From NCBI GenBank assembly GCA_905250025.1, contig CAJNOJ010000105.1:124001-188000 (forward strand): a stretch of DNA of 64,000 nucleotides. Direction: 5' to 3'. The notes beneath the pieces were generated by a model, which saw only the letters and a program-made list of their open reading frames with translations, did no database searches and was not told the DNA's origin. The position numbers and the translations under genes were made by a program. Source of the stretch: Adineta ricciae. Its lineage: Eukaryota; Rotifera; Eurotatoria; Adinetida; Adinetidae. Shown one piece after another: positions 4,868-64,000 of the stretch (the stretch's first letter is position 1; every line of letters starts with the position of its first letter).

Positions 4868-5617
4868 CTTTCTTCTTTAGAGGAAAATAAAAACATAAAG
4901 TAGGTAGTAGATTACATTTTTTATATATGCATGTTGGCTTTTTCCATGATGACTCATTGGTATTGTCACAGCAACTTCTATCGTCATTTGTTTCTCGAAG
5001 AATCGAAGAAAAAGAACAGAAAGAAAGAACACGTGGGTAACGTATCGCACTGCGCTAAAGGATTTCTTCCGTAGAATTTCGTGATGTGAATAGTGTTATT
5101 GTCAATAATGTAAGGATAAATCCTTTTGCTTCATTTATCTTTATCCATAGATACTTTGTAGAAAATACAAAAAAAATTCTCAATAAAATAAATGTTTCTT
5201 CCTTCAGAGAAAAAGAATAATGATAAAGTTTAATCCATATCAACAATAGGCAACAGTGCAAGAAATTGTTGCGTTTTTTTATGTTTATCACCAAAAGTTT
5301 TCTTCATGATTCTTTGAGCTTTTGAATAATATTCTTTCGCTTCATCGAGTTTACTCTGTTTTTCAGCAAATTCTTGATTTTGTTGTTGATCCCCTTGTTT
5401 CTCACCTATTTCAGCGGCTATTTTCAAGCAAATATCACCCATAGTCGTATAAACATCACACATCTCAATGTGATCCATACCTAAACTATCTACTAAAATC
5501 TGTAAAGCTTGTTTAACATGTCCATAAGCTGTATGGTAATTATTCATCGCTGCATAGACAAGACCAAGAGAATTAAGAAAAATGCCATATTTATAATGTT
5601 GATCGTTGAATTCTTTT
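4720..5617. other. 898-bp tract identical to copy B (likely gene conversion)
   Basis: Base-by-base comparison with 48796-49693 shows no substitution or indel. The nearest differences are at 4719 (t; c at 48795) and 5618 (c; t at 49694). The tract covers the first DnaJ exon, the whole DnaJ/RING-TPR spacer (normally the fastest-changing kind of DNA) and the last RING-TPR exon. The sequence on both sides differs at about 4%. Confidence 0.85.
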
Positions 5618-9636: not shown

Positions 9637-9654
9637 GTAAAGCAATTAAGAAAC

Positions 9655-30163: not shown

Positions 30164-31340
30164 TTATTGATAATATATTAAATACTGTCCGTATGCTTGC
30201 GTATCATGATAAGTGACATAGATGTGATCACCATCGGTAGTTGTATGATAGTTCGACGGGCAGACTTTCATGTTAGTATTCCCTAATGTTGAGTTACCAA
30301 TCAGAACCCGTGCATAAAACATGCATCGTTCTCCGTGATTGTTCGGTATGCTATACACATGACTATAACTTGCATTGGATGAAAAATAAACTCCGCAACC
30401 GTATTGTGTTCCTTCCAAAGAAAACAGAACGAAGCAGAAATGCAAAACCAATAAGATGCGGAATCATCAGTATTCCATACCGTTTTCTCCACTTAGACTT
30501 CGATTGAAATAGTCTTTGATGATACTATCTGCAGCCATAGCCGAACAACCATGGTAGAGAAATTTCTCCTCTCCTCTCTTCTGTATANAGTAATCGTGAT
30601 GTTCAACGGATATGATTCGGTTTTGATATGATTTATCATTGCGCGAGCAATAAAATCCGCGTCGAAACCGTATTGCCCACAACCAATAGCAGGAAATGCC
30701 ACGCTTGTGTAGTTTTCATCGAGTACATATTTCACCGCTTTGGATAGAAAAGTTTTTATCGTTTGTTCGGTGAAAATGAGCTTTTCATCGGGTGTCCATG
30801 GTAAAAATAGAATCCGTTGGCATGGTAAATTTGAACATTCCAAAGCAATCATTTCATCATGGGATTTCGTTCGTTTAGCTTGTGCATATGCTCTTTGAAT
30901 ATGCGGACCAGCTGCTCGAAGGACAGATTCTCTTAATCCATCCGACGATGAACATACTACGATTACATCGACCTAACAAATACGAAAAAAGCATTGGAAA
31001 TATTGTTGAAATCGTTTGGCTTACTCGTTGATTAGTCAAATATCCCTTGTTTACTTTCAAATTTAAAGTGAGTGAAGAGCATATGTCATAAATGCTTAAC
31101 ACGCATAGACCTAATGGCATAAATTCGTGATCTGGAGATAGTTGACAAATGTATCTAGGACAGTGACATTCACAACTGAAAAAAATAGATAAATCAACGT
31201 GGATAAAAAGAAGCGTTTTACCAAATTTCATCTTCATCATGTTCAGAATCATGATCACTGCCCGTATCAGTATCATTTTCGATGCAAAAACGAGCAATAT
31301 GACCCGGTTTTTTACACTTGAAACAGATTTTTCCACTCAT
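30164..31340 (-). CDS. CCHC zinc knuckle - macro domain - PARP catalytic domain protein (broken at an N)
   Basis: Exons: 31340-31222, 31175-31025, one from 30972 running to the N, then PARP exons ending at 30164. The start MSGKIC opens a zinc knuckle (CFKCKKPGHIARFC, CX2CX4HX4C) followed by an acidic stretch. Then comes a macro domain (LSIYDI ... VDVIVVC ... VAFPAIGCGQYG ... NITIT). After the N (30588) the ADP-ribosyltransferase domain reads FLYHGCSAMA ... an intron ... YGCGVYFSS ... IYVTYHD. The catalytic triad is His-Tyr-Ile, which predicts mono-ADP-ribosylation as in PARP10/14-type enzymes. The linker between macro and PARP is missing, so the gene is probably intact in the organism and damaged in the assembly. 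Confidence 0.82.
30588..30588. other. Single N between macro and PARP domains (probable contig join)
   Basis: The frame changes here and the ~40-residue linker seen in the paralogue (residues before LYHGC) is largely missing. The 23 bases left of the N are the reverse complement of 31542-31564. Confidence 0.65.
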
Positions 31341-44011: not shown

Positions 44012-45895
44012 TCAATTTCCAATTTTATTTTCTAATTTTTGTATACAATTTTCCAGTGTCAATCGAATTCGTTCTCGATTTTTAATCATACTGAACTTTC
44101 TCCAAGCAGTGAGTTTGCCTTCTTGAAGATAACGAGCGATAACATTCACATCTCTAATATCACTAATCAATCGAAAGTAATCGATCAATCGTGCATTGGG
44201 CACCATAGTTATTTGACCTTGAAATTCCTGTAAGAATAAAAACGACCAATCTTGTTCTTGAACGGCCGGTAATACATCTAACATGCCTAGAACACGCAGA
44301 TACTTCTTCATATCTTCTTTCAAAAGTAGTTCAAATGTAGCTAGAAGAAATCCTCCACGATATGCGCCCCCACGTAAACGCCAGCCCGATGGGAGCCCAC
44401 CTTGCCCACGCGCATTGAAAAAGAATGGAATTATGTGTGGATTGGTTTGACTAACTAGAAAATAACTACAACCAAATACCTCCGATAACGTATTCAATGG
44501 AATATCGTTCTCGAAACTTCCATCACGGAACTGTAATCGTTCATCATGCAATGGACGGTAACTTATTTCACCTTGGCGATTGATTATTTTTTCAATCAAA
44601 TGAACTGGATGAATCAGGCCAGGCACAGCTGCTGATGCTAAGACAGCCGATGCTATTGTGACATTCGGTGTCGATAGATAATTGAGACAGAGAGGCGGCG
44701 AATGTTTTCGTGCGCTTGTTGCGGTGATGTTCAATATCCGACCAGTTTTTTCATATGCTTCTTTGAAAGTCAATCCAACCGTTCCTGGCCCATCGGCACC
44801 TGCAAACCACTGCAGTTTCTCTAGCCAACGATCTCGATCGAACATCGCACGATGCTTCACATAATTTTTCAGTCGATCAATCCAAGAAACATCGAAACAA
44901 TTGAATTGTGATAATAAAATATTCGCTTCTAATGTCGATCGTAGTTCTTCATCAGATCGGGTGCAAACAACAGCTGCCACAACTGCTCCACTACTTGTAC
45001 CACTGATAATTTTCGGCAGATATCCAGAGGACAGAAGTGCCTTAACGACTCCCCAATGATAATGACCAATACCAGCGCCACCTGATAGGCATAATGCTGT
45101 TGCACCGTAATGAAATTTCATTGCTTTCAACGCTTGTAAGACAAGTTCAGTCGATGGAATTTCCTGTGATGTACTGTTCACATTTATCATATCGATTGTT
45201 TGCAATTCAGTGTAATCGATCGATGACAGATTATCTGTTGAATGTGAACTTTTGATCTGAATCGATTGAGCTTGTTCGGTAAGATACTCTAAACTTGTAA
45301 CAATCTCTTCAATATATTCCTCAATGACGTATTTCGTGCCAACTAAACTTTTCGAGTACAGATGCTCGTTGAGTATACCATTCATGTTTTTATTGATACA
45401 CATTTGCAATAGTTTCATACTCTTTTCTAAATCACCAGATTCACGAGAAGTTTTTAATTCATGGGTCAACTTTCGAATTAGTGTATTATTGTAATATTTC
45501 GATTCCGAACTGGCTTTCCACACTTCTCGTCCGTGTAGTTTATCGGTTTCGTTAGCATATTCATACCATTCTTCATACGTTTCAGCATTGTTCAACATCG
45601 GTGGACGAATAAAGAGTGATTCGAGTAGCCGAATGAAGTACCGTAAAGATATATAAATAATCAATTCAATGATGATAAACGACATAAAACAAACAAATAT
45701 CGGCCATTTCAAAACACGTTTTGTGCCAAGTAGATAACAGAAGAATACGACGATGCCGATGGTTACATAGAACGAATGCGTCGATGTTATGTCGTATCCC
45801 AGCCATTGAAATAATGTTTGTGGTATTATGACAAGTATTCTCTTTTGAGAAATAAAGTAATATATGGTACCAACAATGAATAATCCCATAAACAT
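44012..45895 (-). CDS. DUF3336/patatin-like lipase, copy B (complete)
   Basis: 627 codons, one exon. N-terminal hydrophobic helices (~1-95) are followed by the DUF3336 helical region (~100-210: EEWYEYANETDKL, GILNEHLYSKSLVGTKYVIE). The patatin domain (~260-470) has the oxyanion loop SGGAGIGHYHWG, the nucleophile Ser301 in Gly-Thr-Ser-Ser-Gly and the dyad Asp458 in Asp-Gly-Ser. All catalytic residues are present. DUF3336-patatin enzymes are lipid-droplet triacylglycerol lipases in fungi and plants and also occur in bacteria. They are not the usual animal PNPLA type, so foreign origin or unusual retention is possible. Identical in length to copy A where both are visible. Confidence 0.9.
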   Translation of the reverse strand: MFMGLFIVGTIYYFISQKRILVIIPQTLFQWLGYDITSTHSFYVTIGIVVFFCYLLGTKRVLKWPIFVCFMSFIIIELIIYISLRYFIRLLESLFIRPPMLNNAETYEEWYEYANETDKLHGREVWKASSESKYYNNTLIRKLTHELKTSRESGDLEKSMKLLQMCINKNMNGILNEHLYSKSLVGTKYVIEEYIEEIVTSLEYLTEQAQSIQIKSSHSTDNLSSIDYTELQTIDMINVNSTSQEIPSTELVLQALKAMKFHYGATALCLSGGAGIGHYHWGVVKALLSSGYLPKIISGTSSGAVVAAVVCTRSDEELRSTLEANILLSQFNCFDVSWIDRLKNYVKHRAMFDRDRWLEKLQWFAGADGPGTVGLTFKEAYEKTGRILNITATSARKHSPPLCLNYLSTPNVTIASAVLASAAVPGLIHPVHLIEKIINRQGEISYRPLHDERLQFRDGSFENDIPLNTLSEVFGCSYFLVSQTNPHIIPFFFNARGQGGLPSGWRLRGGAYRGGFLLATFELLLKEDMKKYLRVLGMLDVLPAVQEQDWSFLFLQEFQGQITMVPNARLIDYFRLISDIRDVNVIARYLQEGKLTAWRKFSMIKNRERIRLTLENCIQKLENKIGN

Positions 45896-46172
45896 GCTGG
45901 TAGAAACAAATGAATCGAAATTAACCTGTTATTGTTAGATCTTCAAACTTTTTAAGTGCAAAACGAAATATTTTTTCTTTTCTCTGTGCGAGTGATAAAC
46001 ACTCCACTCACCTGTTATCAGCATAAATGAAATCACGTCGGTTTTTTACTCCGTTTCTCATCTATTTATTGAATTTACATTAAAAAAAGTAAAAGATAAA
46101 AAAGATACGAGCCAGGGGAATCTTTTCTATCTCTCCACTCACATCCTCAAGAAACTGAATCAAAGTGTTCCG

Positions 46173-46601
46173 TTATTCAATACGTGATCGAGTGCGATTC
46201 TGTATTTGTTTTTGCCAGTAACAAATCATGGGAAAGAAAACTAATTCAACAATAGTAGCTAGAACCGCACCTGTTTCTAAACCCACCGCAAACAAACCCC
46301 ATAAACGGCCTAAGCCACCGATAAATACAATGATACAAGCACGATGTAATTCCGTTGCGTCCCGATGAATATTTGGAATACTCCGTAGCAAAAATATTCC
46401 CATTGCGAAAAGATATCCAGATATGTAACGAAAATGACTGTCAACTTCGATTGAATAGTTCTCGGACTTGAATACTAAATTCGGTTTGAGAGTTATACCA
46501 CTTGGACCCAAAAACATTCCTTTGAATCCAACGAATATTGGAACAAATGCGCTCAACGTAACTACGATTTTCAATGCTAAACTCTCATTTATCTTCACCA
46601 T
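46173..46601 (-). CDS. DUF4345-like small membrane protein, copy B
   Basis: 142 codons from the MVKINES start shared with copy A; the frame is open 30 codons further upstream here only. The four hydrophobic segments and the GLGRLWGL helix are conserved. Differences from copy A are scattered, mostly conservative changes, consistent with both copies staying under constraint. Confidence 0.55.
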   Translation of the reverse strand: MVKINESLALKIVVTLSAFVPIFVGFKGMFLGPSGITLKPNLVFKSENYSIEVDSHFRYISGYLFAMGIFLLRSIPNIHRDATELHRACIIVFIGGLGRLWGLFAVGLETGAVLATIVELVFFPMICYWQKQIQNRTRSRIE

Positions 46602-46814
46602 TGTCTTCTTCTTGTCGACTAAGAGTGAAAACATTCGTATCCTATCTCGATTCTGTATATAAATATTCTTCTTATCACAGACAACAAACATGAATAATGA
46701 AAAAGACTATACACATGTATACACACATTTGTTCAACAGTCAAACGAAACAAAATATATGAGAAGAAGTCGATCGTTTTATTCATCACTTGAGAAAAGAA
46801 CATGAATGTACATT

Positions 46815-47075
46815 TTATATAATATTATCATTTGGTCCCAAATCCATCATAATACAGTTTCTACAGCACTTAACGCACCTTGTGCAACACAGATCATATT
46901 CGGCACAACAAAGCACTGGTCTTCGATAACAGATCAACGGTCGAGCATCAACACAAACAGTGGGCGTTGGATTTTCACATATGATATACCTGTCTGGTTC
47001 TTGAGTAAATGTTATATGAATTTCACTACCAGGATCGCAACGAAATGAGTACTCATATTCACAACATAACGCCAT
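46815..47075 (-). CDS. Cys-rich 86-residue protein, copy B
   Basis: Same start (MALCCEYEYS) and stop as copy A, with two amino-acid differences (Asp/Lys region EPDKY to EPDRY, and Thr to Met near the end). All cysteines are kept, which supports a functional small protein with structural cysteines. Confidence 0.5.
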   Translation of the reverse strand: MALCCEYEYSFRCDPGSEIHITFTQEPDRYIICENPTPTVCVDARPLICYRRPVLCCAEYDLCCTRCVKCCRNCIMMDLGPNDNII

Positions 47076-47366
47076 TTTTGCCAGGGAAAGTATATGGGGA
47101 AGAATTTGATGCATCAAATGTTTATATATGCGTACGACGAGAATACGGAAATAGCTTGATCGAATCAACAAAAACAACTAATTATTGATCGAAGTATGTC
47201 CAAGAAAACTATCACTTTCAACAAACGGAACTTACTAGAAGCATGACATTGATGTCTATTAACAAGTTTTGTTTCTCTAATTTTTATTTATTTGATATCA
47301 ACCTTGACAAAAGTAGGTAAGTGTTCAGTAAACAAAATGTACGAATAGAAAAAAAAAACGAAAATT

Positions 47367-48943
47367 TTATTGTTGATGACATTGAACACCTTGTCTGTGA
47401 TAGTGAGACTCAGCATCGTCGTCGTCGTCGTCGTTGTCTCCGCGGTGATTACGTTTGAAATCTTCTCTATTCATATAGTATTCATTCATTTCGGGTTTTT
47501 CATAGCGCTGAGTATTGTTCAATTGAATTCGTTTTTTCGCTGGAAGAATTGATTCTAATTGCTAGAAGAAAAACGAACAAAATTCGCGTCAATCGATGTT
47601 AAGAAAAAGAAAAGTGAAACTTACCACACGTTGACTCTCAGTTAGATGAAAGTTCGTTTCATCGGGGAATTTCACATCAAATTGAATGATCAAATCACCG
47701 TATGAATGTGTATTTCTATTCGGCATTCCATAGCCTTTGAGACAACGATAACTATTCGGAAGGATAGGCTTTCCTGGTGGATGATCAATTAGAATTTCGT
47801 GATTGTCTAATGATTTAATTAGACGTTGAAAACCGCATAGGCATTCGGTGAGATTGATCTCCATTCTCATAAATAAGTTATCATTCCTTCGTTCGAAAAG
47901 TCGGTGAGGTTCTTGTTTGAGAATAACAAACGCCGTTCCCGGTGTGCCATTCGGCTAAAACGATTCCAAAGGAAAAAGTGAGTAAAAGAAAATCGTCGTA
48001 AAAACTTACAATCTGATGACCTTCACCGTGAAATTTCACTGTTTCACAATCTGCACCACCTGGTACAATATTTACATCGAGAATTTTTTCTTCTCGATTG
48101 ACTTTCTTTCCATAACATGTTCGGCATCGATTCTTTGGATCGGTCATATCTCCACTTCCATGGCAAACCGAACACTCACGACGTGTTTGGTGAATAAATG
48201 GGCCAGCACGATGAATGGATGTTTCCATTCCTGTTCCATCACAATTTATACAGCGACGGGTGACACCGTCAGAAGAACCAGTACTATTTGAGAATTCATT
48301 AAGATTTTTGCTTCGTTTGACAGGAAAAGGTCTCAACATACCCTCGGCAACTCTCACAAACAACATTACGATCGATGACAGCAACTCTTGTACTACCGGC
48401 GTACAATTCTTCCAGAGTAACTCTACGATAGAAAAACAAGAAAAAGTGAAATCGAGATATTGTTTTTTGTTATTTTACTGAAGGACTTGTTTGATATCTT
48501 CGCCTTTCGTTGATCGTGTCGTATGTCGATGAGTTGATCCATGATCGAATAGATTGAAGATGTCAAATACTTAAAATAACAGGAAATGTGGGAAACTTAG
48601 AGACAAAGTTGTTTTGTATTTACTTACTGTCATTGTGGAAACCTGGAAAATGAAAATCTTGATTTTCCATTCTCGATTGCATTCCTTTTAGTCCATACTG
48701 ATCATAGGCTCGACGTTTTTCAGGATCACTTAGAATATCCCTTGCTGCATTGACTTGCTGCATCTAAATCATCCCGAAAGATTAACTATCAAATCTCTAG
48801 CTTAATCAATTTACCATTTCATGACTTCCACCACGATCTGGATGATGTTCCAATGCTTTTTTTCGAGCAGCTCTGGTAATTTCATCTTGTGTTGCAGAAG
48901 GTTCAACTCCAAGTACGTTGTATAAAGTCTTGTCAACAACCAT
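47367..48943 (-). CDS. Type-A DnaJ/Hsp40 co-chaperone, copy B
   Basis: Same exon layout as copy A, with HPD motif and four zinc-finger repeats (CHGSGDMTD and so on) intact. The last exon (47561-47367) is 15 bases longer: the acidic tail has a five-Asp run from a (GTC/GAC)n expansion, and the CaaX box reads Cys-His-Gln-Gln instead of Cys-Pro-Gln-Gln. The first exon lies in the tract identical to copy A. Predicted length about 411 residues. Confidence 0.92.
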
Positions 48944-49305
48944 CTTTCTTCTTTAGAGGAAAATAAAAACATAAAGTAGGTAGTAGATTACATTTTTTAT
49001 ATATGCATGTTGGCTTTTTCCATGATGACTCATTGGTATTGTCACAGCAACTTCTATCGTCATTTGTTTCTCGAAGAATCGAAGAAAAAGAACAGAAAGA
49101 AAGAACACGTGGGTAACGTATCGCACTGCGCTAAAGGATTTCTTCCGTAGAATTTCGTGATGTGAATAGTGTTATTGTCAATAATGTAAGGATAAATCCT
49201 TTTGCTTCATTTATCTTTATCCATAGATACTTTGTAGAAAATACAAAAAAAATTCTCAATAAAATAAATGTTTCTTCCTTCAGAGAAAAAGAATAATGAT
49301 AAAGT

Positions 49306-51616
49306 TTAATCCATATCAACAATAGGCAACAGTGCAAGAAATTGTTGCGTTTTTTTATGTTTATCACCAAAAGTTTTCTTCATGATTCTTTGAGCTTTTG
49401 AATAATATTCTTTCGCTTCATCGAGTTTACTCTGTTTTTCAGCAAATTCTTGATTTTGTTGTTGATCCCCTTGTTTCTCACCTATTTCAGCGGCTATTTT
49501 CAAGCAAATATCACCCATAGTCGTATAAACATCACACATCTCAATGTGATCCATACCTAAACTATCTACTAAAATCTGTAAAGCTTGTTTAACATGTCCA
49601 TAAGCTGTATGGTAATTATTCATCGCTGCATAGACAAGACCAAGAGAATTAAGAAAAATGCCATATTTATAATGTTGATCGTTGAATTCTTTTTTGATAA
49701 TGACAAGTGCTCGATCAATATGAACAAGCGCTTGTTTGTAATTGCCTAAAAATGAAGAACGAATCGAGTTTTACGATATGTCTTTGTTTCATTTTGTTTT
49801 CCTAACTAACCGGATTGAAATTGAACTTGTCCGATATTATGAAGAATTTCAGCTGCTTCGGAATGTTCCGGACCAAGTGTTTTTTCAATTATTGCGAGAG
49901 CCCGTCGATAGATACGTAGCGCGCCATCGTAATCACTTCTTTTTCGATCAAGGTTCGCTAGATTATTGTAATAGATGCCCAGTTTATAATGTTCTTGATT
50001 TGGACCGAATGTGTTTTTGATAATTTTTATTGCTCTTTCATAGAATGCTTGTGCTTCATTATAATCATCCTTTTTCTCTAATACGAGACCCATTGAATTG
50101 AGTATTTCAGCTACTTCAATATGCTTTGGTCCTAAGGATTCTTCTAATACGGTCAATGCTTCTTTGTATATCACTTCAGCTGTTTTGTAATCACCTTGCT
50201 AAAAACAAAACAACAAATTCTTGCAAGGATGAAGATTTTCTTCACACTGATGAGCCTCTGTGCAACAAAATAAGTGAAATCGATAGATTACCTTTCGATA
50301 AATATCACCAATATTTCCCAAATACATTCCGATTGACTCGTGCTTATCACCATAATAGTGTTTGGATATTTTTAATGCTTGTTTTAAATAATCCAATGCT
50401 TCGGTATATTTGCCTTCTTTCTTCAAAAGAATTCCAAGATTATTCATCACATCAGCAACTAATGGATGGTTATGACCATGCACTGATTCAAGTTGTTTCA
50501 GCGCTTTTAAATAGAGTTCATAAGATTCATTATAATTGCCTTTTTTTCGGAAAATATCTAAATTTCAATTAAAAATTATTTTTGAATTGGCGAAAATATA
50601 GATTCTGATATTACCAGCTAGATTAGCAACAATTTCTGACCAAAGATTCGAACTTGTATCGACTATTTCAAGCGCTTGATTATAACTCGAAATAGCTTGA
50701 TCATACTATAAAGACAAAAATCGTTATAAGAGATCGAATAGTGAGTCTGAACGTACATGAGAACATTTCTTAGCAAGAAGTCCAATACTATTGAGAATTT
50801 CGGCTTTTTTCTGTGATTGATCATTGTGTGGAAGAAGTTTAAATGCTCGCGTAAACTTTTCCTGTGCTTCAGTATATTTTGCCTGTTTAAGATAAATATG
50901 TCCAGAAGCCAAAAGTAATTCGATACGTTGAGGATTTGTTTTCGCTTTCAAATNTTAAGATAAATATGCCCAGAAGCCAAACGTAATTCGATACGTTGAG
51001 GATTTGTTTTCGCTTTCAAATAAACATCTGTATAAAGTTCCAATGCTTTATCATATTGTCCATCATCTTGTTCAATCTGTGCACTTAAAATCGTGATATT
51101 AAACACGTTTTGCATACCTTTAATCATTTTTAAACATTGTCGTGCTTCATCATAGCCGTGTTCTTCATGAAATACTTTGGCTAAATCGTACAATTCATTA
51201 TCCTTGTCTCTTGTACGTGCTTTTGCATTACTATACTGTTGTAATTGAAGTCGTAATTCAAATAATTTCTGTTCTCGTTGATACTTTAATTTTTCCGGTG
51301 TATAGGAACATGTTTGTTTGTGGTGAATCAAATCACTTCGAGGTATTTTAGCTGAACAACCTTGCAATTTATTAGGACAATTGAATTGAATATTTTCAAT
51401 GAATTGTTGAATGGCAATGTTAGTTATGAGCGTTTGTTCGGTCAATGTCGTTGAACGACATCGCGGACAATTTGGAGCAAATGTTCTCAGCCATGATTGA
51501 ATGCAAGTAAGACAAAATAGTTGATGACAACAAGGAGTTTCTCGAACATCAGTTAGATAGTCACAACATATGCCACATTCAATCAAAACTTGAAATTCAC
51601 TTTGTGTTGCAATCAT
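49306..51616 (-). CDS. RING-TPR protein, copy B (frame broken at an N)
   Basis: Orthologous exon by exon to copy A, with the RING and TRAF-like cysteines intact. Exon 1 is interrupted at an N (50954). About 69 bases encoding KAKTNPQRIEL...ASGHIYL are present twice, once on each side, with two base differences between them. The left version matches copy A (LLLASG) and the right version reads LRLASG. This is an unresolved contig overlap rather than a natural frameshift. The last exon lies in the conversion tract and is identical to copy A. Confidence 0.82.
50954..50954. other. Single N with ~69-bp duplicated overlap (contig join)
   Basis: Sequence before the N (~50884-50953) and after it (50955-~51023) is the same stretch repeated, differing at two bases. 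This indicates that two overlapping contigs, possibly from different copies, were joined without merging. Confidence 0.85.
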
Positions 51617-52889
51617 TTTTGTTTTCAAAATCAATAAAATGAATTTTTACTCGACGACAACATTCGAATTTTATATGCTCTAAAAGCAAAACAACAATAT
51701 ATGTCGATGTATGTGAATAAGATGGTGAACAAGTATTGTATAATTCGTTTTATATCTTGCAAACTAAGTACACATTTGAAAGAAAAGAAATCAACGCCAC
51801 GTGTGTGTTGTGCAATTTTTTATTTGCATTGACGACATACATGTGATTGTATTTGGATAGGAGCAATATTATCAAAGTATTACGAAATTGGGTATATTTT
51901 GTTGTAGAAAAATATGCATGTTGATTCTTATCTTATCAGTTTATTTTGCATATAATGGAATGTGTGAATATTCATTACTAGAAAGGTTATATTGTGAAAT
52001 TTTCTCTTTAAGGAAAAACAAGGTAGAAAGTAATTCTTCATATCTATCGTGATATATGTTATTGAGTTCAATGTGACTGTTTTTTTTATTAAACAAACGT
52101 AGTTTAATACCAACAAGTGAGAGGTGTGAAATCTTCGAGCAACGATCGTTTGCGCTAGATGTACGAAAAAATAAAATGGTACGAAACGTAATTTTCCTTG
52201 ATGGAACACGTGAAAAAAGTAATCTAATATAAAAATCAAGATGAATCTTTTGAGATCGATTGATATTCATCTATCGATATTGTGTTATTGGTTTAAACTG
52301 GATACTTAGAGGGATATTAATGTTCATGAAAACGACAAATCACGCAATCACACTGCTCGAGTCGATTGATAGACAAAACAAATCACTCGGAGTACCGATG
52401 GTTTCGTAGATCAGAATGATATATTATGAGAATTAACCCAGCTACTGAGTAAAAACATCCGTCGAAATTTTGAGAAATCAAAGTTTTATTCTATTATGAG
52501 GTGCAAAATCCACAATAACGTCCCGTGCCTGGAAAAAAATAGGAATACATAAATTTCAACGATAACAATCAAACTTATCTTCAGTCGTGTTGTCAGATAT
52601 TTGTTCTTCATCATTATAGCATGAAAGATTTATTACACATGAAAATTCGTCGAAAATCACTGCATTTCTTCAGGTTTTCATCGATACTTCCATGACAGTT
52701 TCACCACAAGGATCGTTCGACAAACACAACAACTATAAGATAATGACTCGCATACCATTGATTTATGGATACCCAATTCAATCGAAGACGTGTAACAAAC
52801 AAATATATAATTTACGATGCGCTGATTTCGCCTAGATATCAACATATATAAGTACGTTTGATCACAAACTTTTTTAGACTAAGTGTAAT
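51617..52889. promoter_or_regulatory. Divergent intergenic region, copy B
   Basis: Counterpart of 7473-8702. It contains a ~43-base segment absent from copy A, bounded by the direct repeat acaaatcac (52335-52343 and 52378-52386). Conservation rises towards the collar start, which suggests the promoter is there. Confidence 0.45.
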
Positions 52890-55047
52890 ATGATACGATT
52901 TCTCTGTTTCTTTGTGCTGTTTACTGTCGTATCAGCAGGAGGGATCCTCAGTACGTTAATGCATGGTGATATTGAGCATTTCAATGGTACCATTTCTCTG
53001 CCGAATGCCATCGAAGAAAACGAAGAATCATCATTGCCTGATTATTCTCACCAACGTAGTTTTGCCGGTGTTACAATCAATACGAATATTTTCACTTTGT
53101 TTTATTATAAGAACAGTCAAATATATGTGTACAACACATTGGCCAATGAAAATAAATATCCCAACGATCCGTCTCGATGGATATTCTACTATATTCCAAT
53201 AATGGCTCCAGTTCGAACTTCATCGGACGCAACCTGGGCATGGTCAATAGAAAACGAAGTTCGTGTCAATCTTATGTTGGGTGACCGAGAAGTAGAAGAG
53301 ACGGCACGTGAAGCCATTGCCAAAAAGTTCGACATGAAAATAGCCGAATATGCTAAATATTGGGATATCGCACCGTTGATGATAGAATCTTTGACTGCTT
53401 TCGTTGTAAAAGGCAGTAGTTCACCGATAGCAGGTGTACAACCTTATCATGCCGTTCATCCGAATTCACTAAATATGATTTTTCGATTTCCCTGTTCAAC
53501 AAGTACGAATGCACGCGATGTTGCAAGATTGATTGCCAATGGAGAATATGATATTGAAATCGCGTTCCATTTTGATGGCTTCAAACAAACGTCAACGTCA
53601 CTGGTATCAATCACCGCTGAACAATTGAAAAGTATCACCAGTAAGACAACAGCTGATGGTGGTAATGCAGATGCAAAATATATTCATCGTAGTCAAACTT
53701 CCAAGTTTGTTGGAACCTATATCACAAACGTGAAAAAGTTGATATACTCGGAAAGTTCAAGCGTCGACACACAATCATTATCGAAAGGATTGGAAGATCA
53801 ATTTATATCATTGTTACAACAAGGTAAAGCAATTAAGAAACACAAACCATACTCATTTTGTTCTTTTAGGAATGGAAAGTGCGCAACAAAACATTGTTAA
53901 AGCTGGTCATTTCAACGAAGTATGGTCATCAGAAGATTTACGTCCGGATCGAATCACGTCAGAGCTCAGTAAATTGTTTACGAAGAATGCTTCAGATACA
54001 GCACATCATACATCATCTGATAAATATCTAAGTGTCGACAAACAACATTTAGAAGAACTAATCGCAAGCAGTTCGAAAGAAGGCGGAGCCGGCGTGTCGT
54101 TTCTCGGTATATCGCTTGGTGGTAAAGGTGGTTCATCCTCCTCATCAAAAAACACATTTTACGATAAGTTGTCACAGATCAATCATGACAAATACTCGCA
54201 GGATGACGTCATCAATTTGCTCAGTGAACACCAGGCCGAATTTGCTTGGGAAGGTGAAAAATTCGTGCCGAAGTCATTCCAAGTTTACAAAACGAGCGAT
54301 TTGACAGATAGTTTACAAATCGCTCTTGTCGCCGAACAAATCACCATTGACAAAAAACAAGGTGCTATCATACGACATGTCAGCACAATGAATACACCAC
54401 AGTGGGTATCAGACGATAAAGGAGCTCTCAGTCCATTCTTAGTAGGTGAGGTAAAACTTTATACTGGTGTTGACACACCATCGCCATCTTGGCTCCGATG
54501 TGACGGCTCTGCTGTTTCCCGTATCCAGTATAAGCGTCTTTTTGCAGTAATAGGTGAACGGTATGGTCCGGGTGATGGTGGTGAGACGTTTAATTTGCCG
54601 GATTTTCGTGGACGAATTCCTGTCGGCGTTGATTCTAACCGAACGCACATAGAGTTAGCAAATGAAATAGGAATATCCGGTGGTAACACAACTTATCAGC
54701 TTACACCCTCTCACATACCAGCGCACACTCACGACCAGGGATCGTTGTATGTAACAAAAAATGGTACTCATAGCCATGATATAACGGATCCCGGACACAA
54801 TCATGGTGGAAGAACAGGATCCTCAAAAATGACTAATGGTGGTTGGGGTTTGACTCCAAAGGGTTATGGTAGTGATCAAGGAAATCATGATCACACAATC
54901 AACACAGATTATACAAGAATTACAATATTATCTGCAGATGACCATTCACATGAAATTTACGGTGAAACGGGATCATTCGGCAATGCTGAACCATTCACCG
55001 TCATGCCACCATATCAAACAATTAATTACATTATTTACGCTAACTAA
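52890..55047 (+). CDS. Secreted chimeric protein with phage tail collar domain and HxH repeats, copy B (complete)
   Basis: Two exons (52890-53823, 53870-55047) join in frame (LLQQ-G-MESAQQ) into 703 codons. There is a signal peptide (MIRFLCFFVLFTVVSAG), then an animal-type secreted region (~20-310) and a linker domain (~311-500; KSFQVYKTSDLTDSLQIAL). The C-terminal phage tail-collar domain (~505-703) has the typical WLRCDGSAVSR, YKRLFAVIGERYG, FNLPDFRGRIPVG and PFTVMPPYQTINYIIYAN. Between these lie repeated His-X-His motifs (AHTHDQG, THSHDIT, GHNHGG, NHDHT, DHSHEI), which bind metal in phage tail fibres and in bacterial microcystin-dependent-like proteins. A secreted, possibly trimeric surface-binding protein is inferred. 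The collar part probably came from a bacterial or phage source. Confidence 0.9.
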
Positions 55048-55227
55048 TGTTTCATGAGATATGATGACTAAAATTCTTCTCAATCTGTTCTAACCTCTAG
55101 AAATGAATTTTCAATAAAGCTATCATTTAGTACTGAATTAATCTCTTCATATAGTTCAACAAGTAGATATTCATAAAACATCATAAAATACAGATCACAT
55201 CGAAAGATTATACGCCGTACACTCAAT

Positions 55228-56763
55228 TCACATATACAATTGAGACATAATATCATCGATATTTAATTTTTCCAGTAATTTTCGATTTTTTGGTAACTTG
55301 ATTGCATTGAAGAAATCTTCTCCATTGAAGTTTTTTCTTCGAAGATCTGATTTCATTTGAATTAATAATTCTACCAATTGATGTCGACAGCCACGAACTT
55401 TCAAACAAATATGCAGTAATGGATCATTGCCATCCTCATCCAATTCATCAATAAGAAACCGTGATACTCTCAATACCTTTTTCAATAATTTTCGTTCTTT
55501 CTTCTGTAATAATATAAATACGAGCTGCTTACTCGTCAACCACGTTTCCACAGGTGTTTCATCAAGAAATCTCCGAAACACCAATCGTTCTTCCTGACTG
55601 CCTGTCATCATATTGACAATAGTTCGACAATATTTCGGCTGATTAAAGAAGCATCGTACATGTGGAATACGACGATATATATAAAGAATGACATCGTCAC
55701 GTTTCTTTTTCATTAACTTTTTCAAAATCGATTGAAATCTATCATTCAAGTCGTCAGACCACGAAGGTACTTGTGCTGAAATATATATATCAACGATAAT
55801 TTTGAATATTTCCAGTTGAATTGTTTCAATCATTACTCCACTTCTATTGACTAGTTCACGTGAAGGTATAAAATGTAACATATCGAAAAGATTTTCTTGA
55901 GCGGATGCTGAAACACTGGAATGTATTCTTTCGTACTCAATCACAAAAAGAAGTAAATCCACTATTGCATGATAACAATGCATATTAACAGGGAGAGTCA
56001 ATTGATCATAGCAATAATATCGCGCTTGAAAAACAGAAAAGATGAGAAAGAAAGAAATGCTACATAAACTGTAGATATAAAAGTCCTCATTGGTTAAGAC
56101 CCGTGGATTGGAAATAATCAAGGCTTTAAACATTTGTATTTCTGTACTAAGCAAGTTTTTATTAGTAGAATTTGGATAACAAAGCTCCGAAAGTAATAAT
56201 CGATTAATTGCCTTGCAAAAATTGAAATCACTCTGTGCAGAACCATCACATTCAAGATATGCACCTCTTTCTAAAACTAACGATTCGATTCGTTTCATAT
56301 CCATCAAATTGACAGGATAGTGTATCAAGTTGCGAAATATTTGCTGTAATTCATAACTATTCGTGATTCGCTCGTCATTAGGAATGGAATTTTGTATTGA
56401 TTTGAACGTTGTTGTATAGACATGAATGTCATCTTCACATCGTTTGTGTTGTTGTTCGATATGGAAGGAGATTAAAGATTGAAAGTATTCACGAAAGTCC
56501 GGATCATTGACGGAACTGTTTACTGCGGCGAACTGTTGAGAAATTCGGTTGAACGCTGCGGAATTGTAATAAATATTGAAGAACATATGATATGGATCGA
56601 TGCATAAATAATCGGTTAATAGATGTAAGCGTTTGTCGATTAGGATTTGGTTCAGTCGGCGATTCAAGCCAAGAAATGTGCGAAATATTGAGTGAACATC
56701 TCCAGAATATTGAAAAATGAGCATTAAAATTTCATCAGGTAAGGTTTCAAAAGTCGGTGACAT
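55228..56763 (-). CDS. F-box protein with long helical C-terminal region
   Basis: A single 511-codon exon. It opens with an F-box (ETLPDEILMLIFQYSGDVHS ... LNRRLNQIL, residues 5-45), the Skp1-binding module of SCF ubiquitin ligases. The remaining ~450 residues are helical without recognised repeats. Near the end, GNDPLLHICLKVRGCRHQLVELLIQ and NGEDFFNAIKLPKNRKLLEKL resemble two degenerate ankyrin repeats. This type belongs to a large bdelloid F-box family. The substrate is unknown. Confidence 0.82.
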   Translation of the reverse strand: MSPTFETLPDEILMLIFQYSGDVHSIFRTFLGLNRRLNQILIDKRLHLLTDYLCIDPYHMFFNIYYNSAAFNRISQQFAAVNSSVNDPDFREYFQSLISFHIEQQHKRCEDDIHVYTTTFKSIQNSIPNDERITNSYELQQIFRNLIHYPVNLMDMKRIESLVLERGAYLECDGSAQSDFNFCKAINRLLLSELCYPNSTNKNLLSTEIQMFKALIISNPRVLTNEDFYIYSLCSISFFLIFSVFQARYYCYDQLTLPVNMHCYHAIVDLLLFVIEYERIHSSVSASAQENLFDMLHFIPSRELVNRSGVMIETIQLEIFKIIVDIYISAQVPSWSDDLNDRFQSILKKLMKKKRDDVILYIYRRIPHVRCFFNQPKYCRTIVNMMTGSQEERLVFRRFLDETPVETWLTSKQLVFILLQKKERKLLKKVLRVSRFLIDELDEDGNDPLLHICLKVRGCRHQLVELLIQMKSDLRRKNFNGEDFFNAIKLPKNRKLLEKLNIDDIMSQLYM

Positions 56764-57685
56764 GATGTTTTAGCATTGTCAACAAAATTTGTTTTCTTTT
56801 GTCCGCGCACGTGTCGTTTCGTTGTTTCGGTAATTTCACAACATTTATTAAAAATTGCAATTCATGTTGATACTTGTCCCGTGTTACTAGACATCTTCGT
56901 ATTCTTTCTCTCTGTTGCGATACAGCTATTCAAATAGAAGGATGACATACCTATGGTGTAATACCTAAAATGGGTATAAAATATCAGCATTTCGCATGTT
57001 TTTTTCACTGCATCTTCAAAAAAAGAAAACACGCTTTCGAGCGTTTATTCTCCGGAGATTGCTTTTCGCTTACTTCGATTATGCAACACGGAGTACATAG
57101 CTTCTCGATAGCGGTGTCACCATACGACTCGATTGTCTTTTAAGACGTATCTTGGATCGTTGGCTGGACACCGCATCTTTATATCATTTTTCTTTCTCTC
57201 TCTCTTTCTCTTCCGGACTGACAGGCTCATTTCAGTTCCTTTCGAGTTTCCAAATATAGCGGCTACACAATCGTCTCTTCCAGAGACGCTCAACACATTT
57301 CGATGTGTTGTTTGTAGTGGAAACGAGATTGCTGACATTGAAGTGATTACCGGCCGGTCCACTGGGGTGATTTGTGCATGATCTAGTGATACATCATTAA
57401 TTTAGACATGACACTCATTTCACTTCATCGGATCCGGTTCGGCATAACGACGACTATTCCCTTAGACTCAGTATAACAAAATACCGCACGAAAAAAGGAT
57501 TGACATGATGATAATAATCACTTCGGGATTTTCTCCTCGTCACGAGTAATAAATGTAAACATTCGCTTGTTTTTGTCATTCAACCATAAAAAATCATTGA
57601 CGTATGTGCACTAACAGGCTGAGCCTACGTCATTGTATTTACCTACAAATGATTCGCATGAGGAACTGTATAGTTGGAAATTAAT
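56764..57685. other. Intergenic region
   Basis: About 920 bases between divergent F-box (-) and MSP-macro-PARP (+) genes. Two overlapping ~81-codon frames on opposite strands (57117-57381) have no domain, no splice context and low complexity (Arg/Lys-rich on one strand from a CTCTTT run). I regard both as chance. Confidence 0.4.
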
Positions 57686-59820
57686 ATGATGCAAGGGAAA
57701 AAAATGATTATTTCTTTTCACGAAATGACACTTGAAATTCGCCCTAAGCATGAATTAATATTTCAAGGTAAAAAATATACGCGAGTCTAAATTTAAATAA
57801 TCTTCTTTAACAAAGGACCTTTCAATATTGATTCGTCAGTAATATTAAATCTAGCAAACCGTGGTGATGCTTATCTGGCTTTTCAGTTCAAAACCAACGC
57901 ATCTCCTAACTTGCGATCAACAGTCAAACGAGGATTTCTAGAGCCTTATGCCGAAGAAAATGTCAAAAGTACGCTCATTGATGCAATAACTATTGTTGAC
58001 AGTCGGATTCCTTTCCTTCACTAGTCATTCTCTTACCCGAAGAAGCTGATCATCCATACAATGAAAGTTCACAATATCAAATGACTGTTCACTGGACGAT
58101 TATATCCGACATATCCATGAATGACATCGATAATTTTGTAAGGTCGCCTTTTTCTTATGACGCAAAATATGGCAATACGTTATCTTTTTGTAGTGGAAGA
58201 GTAATGCGTCCAACAATCAAGATATACACCATATACATTTGAAATGTGTTTTTACAAACGAAAATTCAGTCGAAGTACGTACGTATATGTATATGAGAAT
58301 ACAATCCAATGCGTTCTGTATAGAGTTTTGCGCTCAGAAATAATACAAAACAAATTTCTCAAGGAACACAGACGTCACCGATGATTCCTAAACGTTCCGC
58401 AAGATTCTTTTCCGGATGGACACATAATTTCATACACATTCATCCTCATCGTTCTCAAAGACTAAACAGCGCTGAAAACCCTACTTCAATTGAATCGCCA
58501 TCAATACAAGTAAGAATTCGAAAAGCGCTCTCGGTTCTACGCGTAAATACGCGATAATTTCAGAAGAAAAATCGCTTCCTCTCACGATTCAAAAAGACGA
58601 AACCTATATCAGTCACAATTGGTCACGGAACCATAAGTGTTGAGCAAGGCGATATAACCAAACAGAAGGTATATCATATCAATAACTTTTATGAACAACA
58701 TCGAAAACGTTCTCCTTCTTTCTTGTCAGATTGATGTGATCATTGGAACTTTGATAGGCAATACCATAGATCGAAAAATCTTAAAAGAAGCTGGCAACGA
58801 AGCAAACGATACTTTTGCCAATGAATACGAACGTAATCCGCATTCGCTGATTATTTCAACTCCTCCAGGTCACTTGAATTGTCACCGTATATTCTTCATC
58901 AAATGGGACCCTTATGCCAACGGAATACAACTTTATCAAGCGATCGCTGATTTCGTATGGAATATTGTCCAAAATGTCATCGCACACGATTTCCAATCTG
59001 TTGCAATTCCAATCGGTGGAGATCAAGAATCGACTGATACGCTGAAAATTATCATCGAAGCGATGATCAAATCCATTCAGAAACAAATCATCATAAGGAA
59101 ATTATCGATATTCGTTAAAATTATTGTAGAACCTGATGAACAATTTATCTACAACGCACTTTGTGAAAAGATTTTGATGTTGTCCAACGGTAATAACGAC
59201 CAACTTTATTCTGAAAGATTTTATTTTCTCTACCTGTTTTAGATGACTTATCAGAAGCAGCTTTACAGTCAGTTGCAACATCGGAGCTAATAGAAAATGA
59301 TCAACTATCTTATGTAATTTCTGAACATACCGATGAATATCAAGCAGTTCTGACTCAATTCGATGAACAAATGAGATACCTTTATACTCAGATGATTCAG
59401 ATTGAACGTATTGAAAACAAACGTTGGTACTTGCAATATTTAGCACATAAAGACGAATTTAAAAGACGCTTGGGCGAAGATACCGAACGGATTCTCTATC
59501 ATGGATGCGACGAACAAGCTGCTAATAACATCGTAACAAAAGGCTTCAGTCGAAATTTTGCCGGTCAGCATGGTGCCAGATGGGGATACGGTGTTTATTT
59601 CTCATCGAGAGCAAATTATAGTGCCGCCTTTGCGCTTCCGAATAATCGCGGAGAAAAACGAATGTTTCTAGCAAATATTTTGATTGGAAAAAGAGCACTT
59701 GGCGACCCATCTATGAGGGTACCACCTGTCGGCTTTGACTCAACTACAGATGGAAGCCACATATTTGTTATCTATCATGATGCGCAAGCATATGCTACTT
59801 ATTTGATAGTATATAAATAA
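57686..59820 (+). CDS. MSP domain - macro domain - PARP catalytic domain fusion
   Basis: Eight exons (57686-57767, 57816-57968, 58025-58137, 58194-58274, 58372-58509, 58564-58668, 58730-59189, 59243-59820) join with consistent phases into 569 codons. An alternative start is at 57704. Residues ~10-120 are a major-sperm-protein/VAP-type domain (LEIRPKHELIFQGPFN ... LANRGDAYLAFQFKTN). Then come a basic Ser-rich linker, a macro domain (~210-380; TISVEQGDITKQKIDVIIGT) and a PARP domain (~440-569). The PARP part has LYHGCDEQAA, YGVYFSSRANYS and IFVIYHDAQAY: triad His-Tyr-Ile, so probably mono-ADP-ribosylating. MSP/VAP domains bind FFAT-like peptides or membranes, so a membrane-contact or cytoskeletal ADP-ribosyltransferase is inferred. 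The macro domain lacks the usual Asn-Ala-Ala-Asn loop, so ADP-ribose binding is uncertain. Confidence 0.88.
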
Positions 59821-59925
59821 CGCTTTTCATTAAATCGCGATTAGTTACTCGAAGAAATAAAAAAAAAGTTAGGAAAACAGTTTTGATCAGTCTATTTATA
59901 ATCAGATCTTCTTTTTGGAAACAAT

Positions 59926-60613
59926 CTAACTGAAAAGAATTGTAGGATTGTAGCCAGTGATATGCGGGTTCGTCTCTGACGGATTCGGTTGTGTAGTACT
60001 TTGCCGATCGGCGAATTTGATAGGGTTTGAAGCGCATGACTTTTTACCACATGAGGAACCTATTATGATGCATGTTACACTGAGAATCATCATTACGAAA
60101 AGGAGACCAAAGATTCCAAAGAAGATGCATAGACGTATCAACGGCGTTTTCCAGTCAGGACGATCCCACTTGACAGTTGCTACATTTTCCTGTTGATAAA
60201 AACACGGATAGTGACTACCAATCTGAAAAACCAAGTAATTGTAAAAGTCAAATATGACATTCAGAACATCTTACGGAAACTTGTGAATGTTGTTGTTCAT
60301 TGTCATCTGAAGAGAACGTGTTATTCAAGATAGTTCCATTGGAAATTGAATAAGTCACAAGAAATTGTTCATTGAAGCATGTATATTCTGACGGATACTC
60401 CTCCTTAGTTTGACACGTGTGAGTAAAAAAAGAATAATGTAATAAACGACAGCTAGTATTCGTATACGCCGGACGATTTCTCACATAGTCAGCAGCCGAT
60501 ATGGATCCCAGCACAATACCAGGTATGAAATAAAGGAAGCAGATTATTCCTGTGATAGAGCACATATGAGTGCCTATTGCTCGACATGCCACAAAAAATA
60601 ATGTGCTGTGCAT
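59926..60613 (-). CDS. Two-TM protein with Cys-rich extracellular loop
   Basis: Two exons (60613-60275, 60222-59926) join in phase 0 into 211 codons. A short N-terminus is followed by TM1 (GIICFLYFIPGIVLGSI), an extracellular loop of ~100 residues with about six cysteines and several N-glycosylation sites, then TM2 (LCIFFGIFGLLFVMMILSVTCIII) and a short Pro/Ser/Thr-rich tail. The topology and the loop ending GSHYPCFYQQ recall BK-channel beta subunits (KCNMB), but similarity is topological and I do not claim that identity. Confidence 0.65.
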
Positions 60614-60801
60614 GCCTATGTTTCGATGTACATCAATCGTTTGGCATATAAATATGATACTTCCTATCGATCACCACCAATAATTTCGTCGAAATCGGCA
60701 AGTCACATGTCATTACCCAAGCGTATCAATGAGACATAAAAGGAAGGAACACAACTGATTCATGTATTTATTTCCAACCGACATAATAAAGAAAAATAAC
60801 T

Positions 60802-61044
60802 TCATACATAGAATAAACGATAAGTGATCAGTAAGATTAGAAGAATAACACTTGCGACGTTCATCGTTATTCCAAATGATCGGTAATCTGAATATTCAAG
60901 AGCGAAAGTGAGTCGACCAACAATGAACAAAATTCTGTAAACAGTTAAAATAATCAATTCATTCGGTTCAAGTACCGTACATAGAGCCAATGAAAAAATC
61001 CGTTTAATAAGTGACTGTTCAAGTGTATTTTGTAAAATACGATG
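60802..61044 (-). pseudogene. MAPEG-like membrane protein, C-terminal fragment
   Basis: The frame reads HRILQNTLEQSLIKRIFSLA, then VYRILFIVGRLTF and YRSFGITMNVASVILLILL. This matches the MAPEG family pattern: QNTxEQ helix, then R-x-LF-x-G and R-x-FG, then the last TM helix. A stop codon lies directly before the fragment in the same frame, and no acceptor site lets an upstream exon enter. Hydrophobic pieces upstream (to ~61300) sit in other frames with stops. I therefore call it a decayed gene, although an unrecognised first exon is possible. MAPEG proteins handle eicosanoids and glutathione; a bacterial-type relative is likely. Confidence 0.38.
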
Positions 61045-61943
61045 TCATTATTCGCCTAGAACCTGCCCCTTTGGATCTAGTGAATTGATCGCAATTCATG
61101 AAACGTATCAGTTGATTACTGCGAGAATGACGATAAGTAATGGAAGTGTATTGTTGAATAAGAATCAAACAGTCATATCAAAACGAGTTTCTACTGACAC
61201 ATCGCCTGAACTACTCTTGATTCTTATTTTCTATGGTAGTCAATCGAGAAAAGCGAATATTAATATCAGAATTGTCACAATCATCGAAATGATTCGTCAT
61301 GGGTCATATTTTTGTCATAGATGCGAAGTTCTTCTTTTACTTTACCATTAGTTTCGTGTGTCATTGCAGTTAGAAGAATGTACAACGTAAAAATAATTCA
61401 GATTTTGTATTTATATACATCTTTGATCGAGCTAAGCACACATGAGAACGCTGCAAGTCGGTAATGTATGTCCTTTTTCTGTTATGAGAATGACACATTG
61501 TGTGAAAAGGTCAATGGAAGATTAAAATACGATTTTTATCTAGGAAAAAATTGCTTCACGCATTGTTTGAGAACGAAATATTTTCGTTTTCTTCTTCCGT
61601 AGATCAGCTGCGCCATCTATCATGCGAAAGTCGTTCGTATGATCAACAGAAAACTATCGTCCTATGTTGCGCTTGCTGAGAAACCTCGTCTCATACGTGC
61701 AATAGTATATGCATTCGTTTTTTTTTCATATTCAATGTACATAATCCCATTGGCAGTGGTATCCAGCAATGATTGTTTGTCTATTCTTTGGTTATGTATC
61801 TTGATTTTGGATAAATCACAAGTTTCGATGTACATTTTCGAACTTTTGTATTTCAGATCTGATTGAAAACGAGTTGTACGGTCTTGATTCAGCGAACTTC
61901 TCTCTAAACTTTCATTTAAATCGTTATTTTCGTCGTTATCACC
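61045..61943. other. Intergenic / degenerate sequence
   Basis: Contains possible remnants of the MAPEG-like gene on the minus strand up to ~61300 and short plus-strand frames without domains. Nothing else is supported. Confidence 0.35.
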
Positions 61944-63019
61944 ATGAGCAACCTTCCAGATAAGACACGTTCGATTCTACCGCGTTCATCTTCTATTACT
62001 TCAAAACACGTATTGAAAAGTTGCAGTGCTCTGATCGTCAGTGCTAGTGTTGCCGGACCTGTGCTAGTAAGGGATGGTTACAAATTGCTTCTGGTACTGA
62101 TACCTTTGATGGAAAAGGTTATGTGTCTAACACTGGAATTCTTCGTGGTGAATTGACGAAGGTGCTGTATGAATACACTCGTAAAGACGTTGAGTACATC
62201 TTTGGTGACTATTCTTTGTCAATCAATGACCAGGAAAATCAAGTTCAGGTGACACTTGCCAGTGATAATAGCCGTGAGTTCGACTTAATGATCAGTGCCG
62301 ATGGTTTTCGATAACCAATTACCGATTAGCTATTTGAATCTGTACGCTGCATACTTTACTATATCCTCGTCGTCAATCAGATAATAATTGGTCATATTAG
62401 TACAATCCACCCAGAGGACGAACAATAACACTTCGTCCTGATAATTAAGATGCGATGCGAGCAACATTGTCATTTCGTAGTTCAGAGCGCGGCTACAAAA
62501 ATCACGATGTCGATAAGCACAAGGAACTGTTAAGACAGGGAATTCGCAAACGCAGATTTCGAAACACCGCGACTATTACATGGTTTGATAGATAAAAATG
62601 AATACTATTTTGAAGTTATCGGACAAGTTACGATGGAATGTTGGTCGCAAGGACGAGTTGCTTTAGTAAATGATGCGGGTTATTGTCCTACTCGTGTCAC
62701 TGGTATGGAAACAACTCTAGCTCTTGTTGGTTCTTATATTTTGGCTGGTGAAATCGGACGATGTCAGGATCATGTAGAAGCATTTAAACAATATGAAATG
62801 CTGATGCGTCCAATCGTTACTAAAGCTCGAAAAATATGATCAATAGCTTGATATATTGCTGCACCAGATATACTTGTTGCTATCACTCTCAGAAACGCTA
62901 TATTGAATTTAATGGCCAAGGCTGTCGTTACTCGACCAGTCAGCAAGCTTTTGGAACAAAAAGCGGCCGATACAACGATCCTACCAGGTTATGATTTTTT
63001 ATTGTCTCAAAAAGATTAG
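61944..63019 (+). pseudogene. Decayed FAD-dependent monooxygenase (TetX/UbiH-type)
   Basis: Pieces in order but in different frames match this family. They are a degraded nucleotide-binding start (SASVAGPVL, normally SGASIAGP), RGELTKVLYE ... FDLMISADGFR (62093-62314) and LNLYAAYFTI. Next come YNPPRGRTITLRPDN followed by AMRATLSFRSSERG (62398-62500) and RVALVNDAGYCPTRVTGMETTLALVGSYILAGEI (62640-62757, reading ND for the FAD-binding GD). A C-terminal piece ends at 63019. In-frame TAG and TAA interrupt the ~62400-62450 segment, and a stop follows ADGFR. The family is mainly bacterial and fungal, so this is probably a horizontally acquired gene that has died. Confidence 0.75.
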
Positions 63020-63181
63020 TGGATTTTTTTTGTGACTCTCATCGTTGATAATTTTACCATGATATACTAGCTATTATTTACACACACACTCGGCACGAAA
63101 GTAAAAATCTATTTTTTATTAATCAATAAAGAGTCAGATATATTAAGAGGTTTAGGATAAGAGTTAAGAGAATACATGAAA

Positions 63182-63694
63182 TTATTTGTCAGTTACATCA
63201 ACTGATGGCGGTGCTTGTAAAGGTTTAATGAGAACATGAGCTAATAATCCGAATGGAATACCCATTAATGCTCCTTTAACAGCTGAAAATGGACTCATTT
63301 TTGTTGGTAAGCCAATTATAAGGCCAGCTAATCCACCAACCATAGAAGTCGAGAATGTGAATTTATCAACTCGGTTTTGGTTTTGAGAATGACGAAGACG
63401 ATAGGCTCGATCCCATATTTTATATTCATTGTATTGTTCTTTACTTAATTTTGCATGCATCAAGCCAACACTCAATGCCACGCCGACTGCAGCACCATAG
63501 ATTGACGCTGTTCCAGCACGACTAAGAACTGGTCCAAATGAAGGATTCTTTCTTGATTTATATAATTGATACGGCAGTGCCGTCAAAAATGTTGCTGTCG
63601 ATCCTAACTGAATGCCCTTATAAATACAATGTAAGGTCAATTCGCGTAATGAATGTGGAATTAATGCTCGTTGTTCATCATCCAAATCGGTCAT
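63182..63694 (-). CDS. Small membrane protein, DUF1757-like
   Basis: 170 codons, one exon. It has an acidic N-terminus, then two or three glycine/alanine-rich hydrophobic segments (YGAAVGVALSVGLMHAKL; MVGGLAGLIIGLP; GALMGIPFGLLAHVL) separated by a charged loop with YNEYKIWDRAYRLRHSQ. The Gly-rich helices recall Tim17-like or DUF1757 proteins of eukaryotes. A mitochondrial or endomembrane location is a guess from that resemblance. No catalytic motif is seen. Confidence 0.55.
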   Translation of the reverse strand: MTDLDDEQRALIPHSLRELTLHCIYKGIQLGSTATFLTALPYQLYKSRKNPSFGPVLSRAGTASIYGAAVGVALSVGLMHAKLSKEQYNEYKIWDRAYRLRHSQNQNRVDKFTFSTSMVGGLAGLIIGLPTKMSPFSAVKGALMGIPFGLLAHVLIKPLQAPPSVDVTDK

Positions 63695-63856
63695 TTTTGT
63701 ATTTTACAAAATAAAAAAACACAATGAAAAAAGAACTTATGCATCAACAATGTAACCTAACGCGTTAGTGAGAGAACGAATCATATATTTAACGCATCGA
63801 GTGTCAATATAGCCATATAAACATAGTATGACATCTATTTGGAAAAATTATAAGAG

Positions 63857-64000
63857 CTATGTTTTCACTACAATCTTGTCGCCGATTGATATTTTTCGAC
63901 GTGCGTCTGGTCCAACAACGATGCAGCCTTTTGACGCTGAATAATCGTTCTTTTTGTTATCTCCGTGAATTAAAAAATCGGATCTACCATACATAATGTT
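63857..64000 (-). CDS. DUF2778/Tlde1-like L,D-transpeptidase, C-terminal part (runs off window)
   Basis: A 48-codon open frame enters from the right window edge and stops at 63857. It reads GRSDFLIHGDN, then SASKGCIVVGPDARRKI, then a final beta strand ending VVKT. His-Gly-Asp followed by Ser-X-Gly-Cys-Ile is the active-site pattern of DUF2778 and other L,D-transpeptidase-fold enzymes (catalytic Cys and His). In bacteria these cut or exchange peptidoglycan cross-links; Tlde1 is a type VI secretion effector. In an animal genome it is probably acquired from bacteria and could act on bacterial cell walls. The N-terminus is not visible. Confidence 0.62.
   Translation of the reverse strand, partial: NIMYGRSDFLIHGDNKKNDYSASKGCIVVGPDARRKISIGDKIVVKT

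Follow-up and report, generated by a model that had tools for sequence, protein, structure and literature searches.

An MSP-macro-PARP fusion gene in the bdelloid rotifer Adineta ricciae

The window analysed here was a 64,000-nucleotide stretch (C105:124001-188000) of the Adineta ricciae genome (130 Mb). An earlier note on this DNA had described a gene at 57686-59820 in which eight exons joined a major-sperm-protein (MSP) domain to a macro domain and a PARP catalytic domain, and inspection of the genomic sequence confirmed that this fusion gene (the window gene, or copy A) is real. The exons were separated by GT-AG introns of 48-61 bp and gave an intact frame of 585 residues (Table 1). Profile searches of each domain, as the note had proposed, matched the MSP and PARP domains in Pfam but missed the macro domain, whose fold was recognised from a structure model together with the PARP fold, so that the domain order stood. 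With at least one macro fold ahead of the PARP domain, the protein belongs to the macro-PARPs. An earlier exon 4/5 junction was dropped because a duplicate of the gene has no AG there, and the junction 58274/58324 was accepted.

Table 1. Features of the window gene and of the duplication that carries it (window coordinates)
Feature	Position	Strand	Remarks
Exon 1	57686..57767	+	MSP start; M1 at 57686, alternative start M14 at 57725
Exon 2	57816..57968	+	MSP; preceding intron also in P0011/P0012, absent from five VAP-type loci
Exon 3	58025..58137	+	MSP; VAP intron positions at both boundaries
Exon 4	58194..58274	+	MSP end
Exon 5	58324..58509	+	linker; between-copy constraint not significant
Exon 6	58564..58668	+	basic KKNRF linker, then macro start
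Exon 7	58730..59189	+	macro
Exon 8	59243..59820	+	PARP catalytic domain and stop
MSP domain, residues 13-137	57722..58256	+	Pfam E 8e-9; PDB phmmer E 9.5e-11, closest solved relative VAPB
Degenerate macro domain, about residues 218-395	58600..59247	+	GGDQESTD replaces GCGxxGCS-type loop
PARP catalytic domain, residues 422-585	59326..59817	+	triad H480 (59500-59502), Y512 (59596-59598), I567 (59761-59763)
Segmental duplication, window part	53835..64000	.	second copy ~16.5 kb further along contig

The second copy of the segmental duplication carried copy B of the gene (C105:198239-200368). All eight exon lengths were equal in the two copies, and the coding sequences differed at 106 of 1755 bases (6%; 55 synonymous and 51 not) with no stops, while the introns showed 5 gap columns and 25 mismatches in 372. 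When the differences were placed at random, none of 5000 placements gave so few amino-acid changes and 4923 created a stop. The Nei-Gojobori (NG86) estimates were 0.038 for nonsynonymous (dN) and 0.165 for synonymous (dS) change. Draws at or below the observed value occurred once in 5000 for the macro domain and four times for the PARP domain, the two domains being about equally constrained between the copies. The deposited A. ricciae protein P0001 was identical to copy B from M14 on, with identical splice sites; together with the exon lengths of the duplicate, it bore out the consistent eight-exon frame of the earlier note.

The catalytic domain was PARP10/14-like, in keeping with the note, and H480, Y512 and I567 aligned with PARP10, giving a triad with an aliphatic third residue (H-Y-I and not H-Y-E). 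Mono-ADP-ribosylation is the known activity of PARP10/14 (PMC2964712; here and below, statements on published work refer to the available parts of the papers cited), and from this activity and the triad the product of the window gene is therefore predicted to mono-ADP-ribosylate. Because no WWE domain was found in the protein among Pfam matches at E<=1, it was classed as PARP14-like and not as PARP14; no RRM was found in Pfam either. The macro domain was compared across 33 proteins collected by two homologue searches (21 of 5445 and 14 of 7840 candidates). The GCGxxGCS-type loop, which we take to be the phosphate loop of the macro domain, was present in 26 of them and missing from P0001, P0018-P0021 (no macro domain in Pfam), and P0014 and P0033 (diverged macro domains). 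Since the window gene has lost this loop, ADP-ribose reading by its macro domain is doubtful and a reader function is not claimed.

The closest solved relative of the MSP domain was VAPB and not the nematode major sperm protein (1msp, E 0.69 in the PDB phmmer search). At the positions of VAPB K87 and M89, the window gene had Q and T, copy B had R and T, and P0011 and P0012, two longer A. ricciae proteins, had R and V, whereas both residues were kept in the two aligned A. ricciae VAP domains. The double mutation K87D M89D abolished FFAT binding in VAPB (PMC4068158). No C-terminal membrane anchor was found in the window gene protein, in which the maximum 19-residue hydropathy was 1.14. Because of the missing anchor and the altered contact residues, canonical FFAT or membrane targeting, which the earlier note had expected of the MSP part, appears unlikely.

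Gene structure pointed to the source of the head. The VAP loci C69 and C152, the two examined closely, carried a phase 1 intron at Q^V and a phase 0 intron at F^W, and both introns were also found in the window gene, P0012 and P0011; on this comparison the MSP exons of the window gene were shown to derive from VAP. An extra phase 1 intron at FQ^G was present in all four fusions (the window gene, copy B, P0011 and P0012); five VAP-type loci (L012-L015 and L018) are continuous across this point. A single capture of the MSP domain from VAP is favoured because this intron is common to the fusions and absent from the VAP-type loci.

P0011 and P0012 had the order MSP-macro-macro-PARP, with nine exons each, and both lay on contig C517, so that at least four MSP-macro-PARP loci are present in the A. 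ricciae genome. This is a lower bound because the genome search with PF00635 (11 matches) misses split MSP exons like those of the window gene; PF00644 gave 125 exon-level matches. According to precomputed Pfam labels, MSP was carried by 3 of the 33 proteins (P0001, P0011 and P0012), all from A. ricciae, and the same leading and closing domains were thus found elsewhere in this genome and in no other species among the 33, in a search of low sensitivity. A search with P0001 residues 1-215 returned P0001 alone among 274 candidates. Because it missed even P0011 and P0012, absence of the fusion from other species was not shown. The heads of the related proteins varied. PDZ was found in P0008 (A. 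vaga), P0009 (A. ricciae), P0018 (Rotaria, without macro) and P0029 (Rotaria, without PARP), ankyrin in P0017 and, below its Pfam cut-off, in P0014, and PTB in P0027 (R. sordida, without PARP). In P0032 (Didymodactylos carnosus, 1055 residues), MLKL_N (E 2.5e-13) and FN3 were joined to macro-macro-PARP; this necroptosis-type N-terminal domain could link the macro-PARP family to cell death, and a literature search found no paper on MLKL with PARP or a macrodomain in invertebrates. In bdelloids, the attachment of different N-terminal modules to a PARP14-like core is a known pattern, on which the MSP head is a new variation, and the fusion is an unusual combination inside a known, fast-changing enzyme family.

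Macro-PARPs are linked to immunity in vertebrates, and the earlier note had suggested that the window gene could encode an immune enzyme. We consider it reasonably probable that the product of the window gene is a soluble mono-ADP-ribosyltransferase of the PARP10/14 type, specific to this lineage, with an MSP adaptor and a non-reading macro domain, acting in stress or defence. The MSP domain would serve as an adaptor for substrates or partners, with its specificity shifted from the FFAT binding of VAP. The macro domain, no longer a good ADP-ribose reader, may be mainly a scaffold or interaction surface, and the PARP domain with H-Y-I would modify any target brought close by the MSP domain with single ADP-ribose units. 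The ancestor was probably MSP-macro-macro-PARP, the first macro domain having been lost in the window gene, and stress or defence signalling would be the most likely setting. As a speculative extension, to which we attach low confidence, bdelloids could possess a combinatorial effector system, in which one macro-PARP core with swapped heads (VAP-derived MSP, PDZ, ankyrin, MLKL_N+FN3) aims mono-ADP-ribosylation at different host or pathogen targets and the MSP ligand has changed from FFAT.

Several results weighed against this picture. Constraint between copies A and B was modest for the MSP domain (183 of 5000 draws at or below the observed value) and not significant for the linker (946 of 5000). 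The P0001 structure model had a predicted local distance difference test (pLDDT) score <50 over residues 1-200, a stretch that includes the MSP domain, and a single-sequence model of P0012 (mean pLDDT 34.8) was unusable, so nothing was drawn from it. Loss of the macro loop was not unique to the window gene and its copy, since P0014 also lacked it. Canonical macro domains carry an NxxN/GGG loop, and this was not seen in the listed macro starts of the relatives either. A KKxRF linker motif that the window gene shares with P0011 and P0012 was tried as a sign of shared ancestry and rejected as not significant (484, 484, 837 and 966 of 5000 shuffles in four comparisons). The macro-PARP trees kept copies A and B apart from P0011 and P0012, so that neither the MSP-macro-macro-PARP ancestor nor the loss of a macro domain can be regarded as secure. 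The same trees would suit two MSP captures, one in the A/B line and one in the P0011/P0012 line, as would a genome search (11 candidates scored) in which, at E<=1, the MSP and linker of copy A matched VAP-type loci but none of the genes on C517. Both pairs sat on long branches in these trees, a single clade of the four was not rejected (approximately unbiased (AU) test, p 0.247), and the MSP tree joined them, weakly (67/81) and with a long-branch warning; with the shared FQ^G intron, these results make two captures rather unlikely.

Other readings concern the gene product itself. Bdelloids trans-splice leaders, and an MSP gene and an adjoining macro-PARP gene might have been wrongly joined; this is extremely improbable, since copy B keeps the exon lengths and frame despite the coding differences, both halves are present in deposited P0001, and MSP is also joined to macro-PARP in deposited P0011 and P0012 at another locus pair. 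Retention of VAP-like FFAT binding, bringing the enzyme to contact sites of the endoplasmic reticulum (ER), would agree with the VAP origin of the MSP domain and with the basic R at the K87 position in copy B, P0011 and P0012. We hold it to be very unlikely, given T or V at M89 in all four fusions, Q at K87 in the window gene, the K and M of the A. ricciae VAP domains, the missing tail anchor and the VAPB mutant, although that mutant is D/D and the window gene Q/T. An inactive enzyme with a scaffold role resembling that of PARP9 or PARP13 would fit the lost macro loop and the long branch (1.4 changes per column) but is unlikely with an intact H-Y-I triad and a constrained PARP domain. A role mainly in the response to DNA damage or desiccation rather than in immunity is possible, though short of probable. 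In A. vaga, ADP-ribosylation was enriched among the genes whose expression rose on desiccation, the over-expressed PARP genes numbered 17 at 2.5 h after radiation and 9 following rehydration (PMC10809525), and the PARP14-like FUN_023026 was over-expressed after radiation and under-expressed in flight (PMC12220480). These are A. vaga genes and not necessarily orthologues of the window gene, ADP-ribosylation genes were down in spaceflight (PMC12220480), and Pfam showed no DNA-binding domain in the window gene protein. The terms 'ADP-ribos' and 'PARP' were absent from the main text of the A. ricciae fungal-attack paper (PMC11258130), and the available part of PMC6264785 names PARP1 and no macro-PARP.

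Other features were observed nearby. Window positions 1-9664 and 44134-53851 formed a direct segmental duplication with 92-95% identity at an offset of 44.1 kb, adjoining the 16.5 kb-offset duplication that holds the window gene. Another macro-PARP-like gene at ~30167-30972 (minus strand) lacked the middle relative to a relative at C105:109761-110886 and may be a degraded copy. A 434-residue open frame (start not required) at 53743-55044 (plus strand) contained a phage tail collar domain (Pfam E 4.3e-18), possibly a horizontal acquisition in this rotifer genome. A 513-residue open frame at 55228-56769 (minus strand), within the block duplicated with the window gene, began with a weak F-box-like match (E 0.0086, below cut-off).

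The earlier note knew of no standard family with the order MSP-macro-PARP, and our literature searches, which were not exhaustive, found no paper describing it; the word 'sperm' was absent from the available parts of PMC4245714 and PMC2964712. The fusion proteins and their Pfam labels were already deposited. The gene is a clear example of an ADP-ribosyltransferase whose head is a contact-site domain taken over from VAP, introns included. The introns suggest an order of events, and the duplicate copies and the longer P0011/P0012 pair make head specificity and loss of macro reading directly testable. The bdelloid PARP expansion, treated mainly as DNA repair (PMC12220480, PMC10809525), includes multi-domain enzymes that bear adaptor heads and in which Pfam shows no DNA-binding domain.

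Among known systems, PARP14, PARP15 and PARP10 (clade 3 macro-PARPs, mono-ADP-ribosyltransferases) share the catalytic fold and H-Y-aliphatic triad with the window gene, and PARP14/15 also have macro ahead of PARP, but the window gene has an N-terminal VAP-type MSP domain and a single macro domain without one binding loop. VAPA and VAPB have a similar MSP domain, and two intron positions are common to A. ricciae VAP genes and the window gene, in which the tail anchor is missing, the FFAT residues are changed and MSP is fused to an enzyme. P0011 and P0012 resemble it in MSP first, the FQ^G intron and PARP last, and differ in two macro domains, each with the GCG loop, and in an intron in the PARP domain; their second macro domain is 31-32% identical to that of the window gene. 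In the bdelloid macro-macro-PARP family (for example Rotaria P0002 and the PDZ-carrying P0009), macro identity reaches 45%, and PDZ, ankyrin, MLKL_N+FN3 or nothing recognised stands in place of MSP. A phase 0 macro intron occurs at the same place in the window gene and in P0010, P0011 and P0012, the three checked. Sponge PARP14-like proteins likewise carry extra domains on a PARP14-like core, Radial spoke 3 in one, and the unusual addition there is not MSP (PMC4245714).
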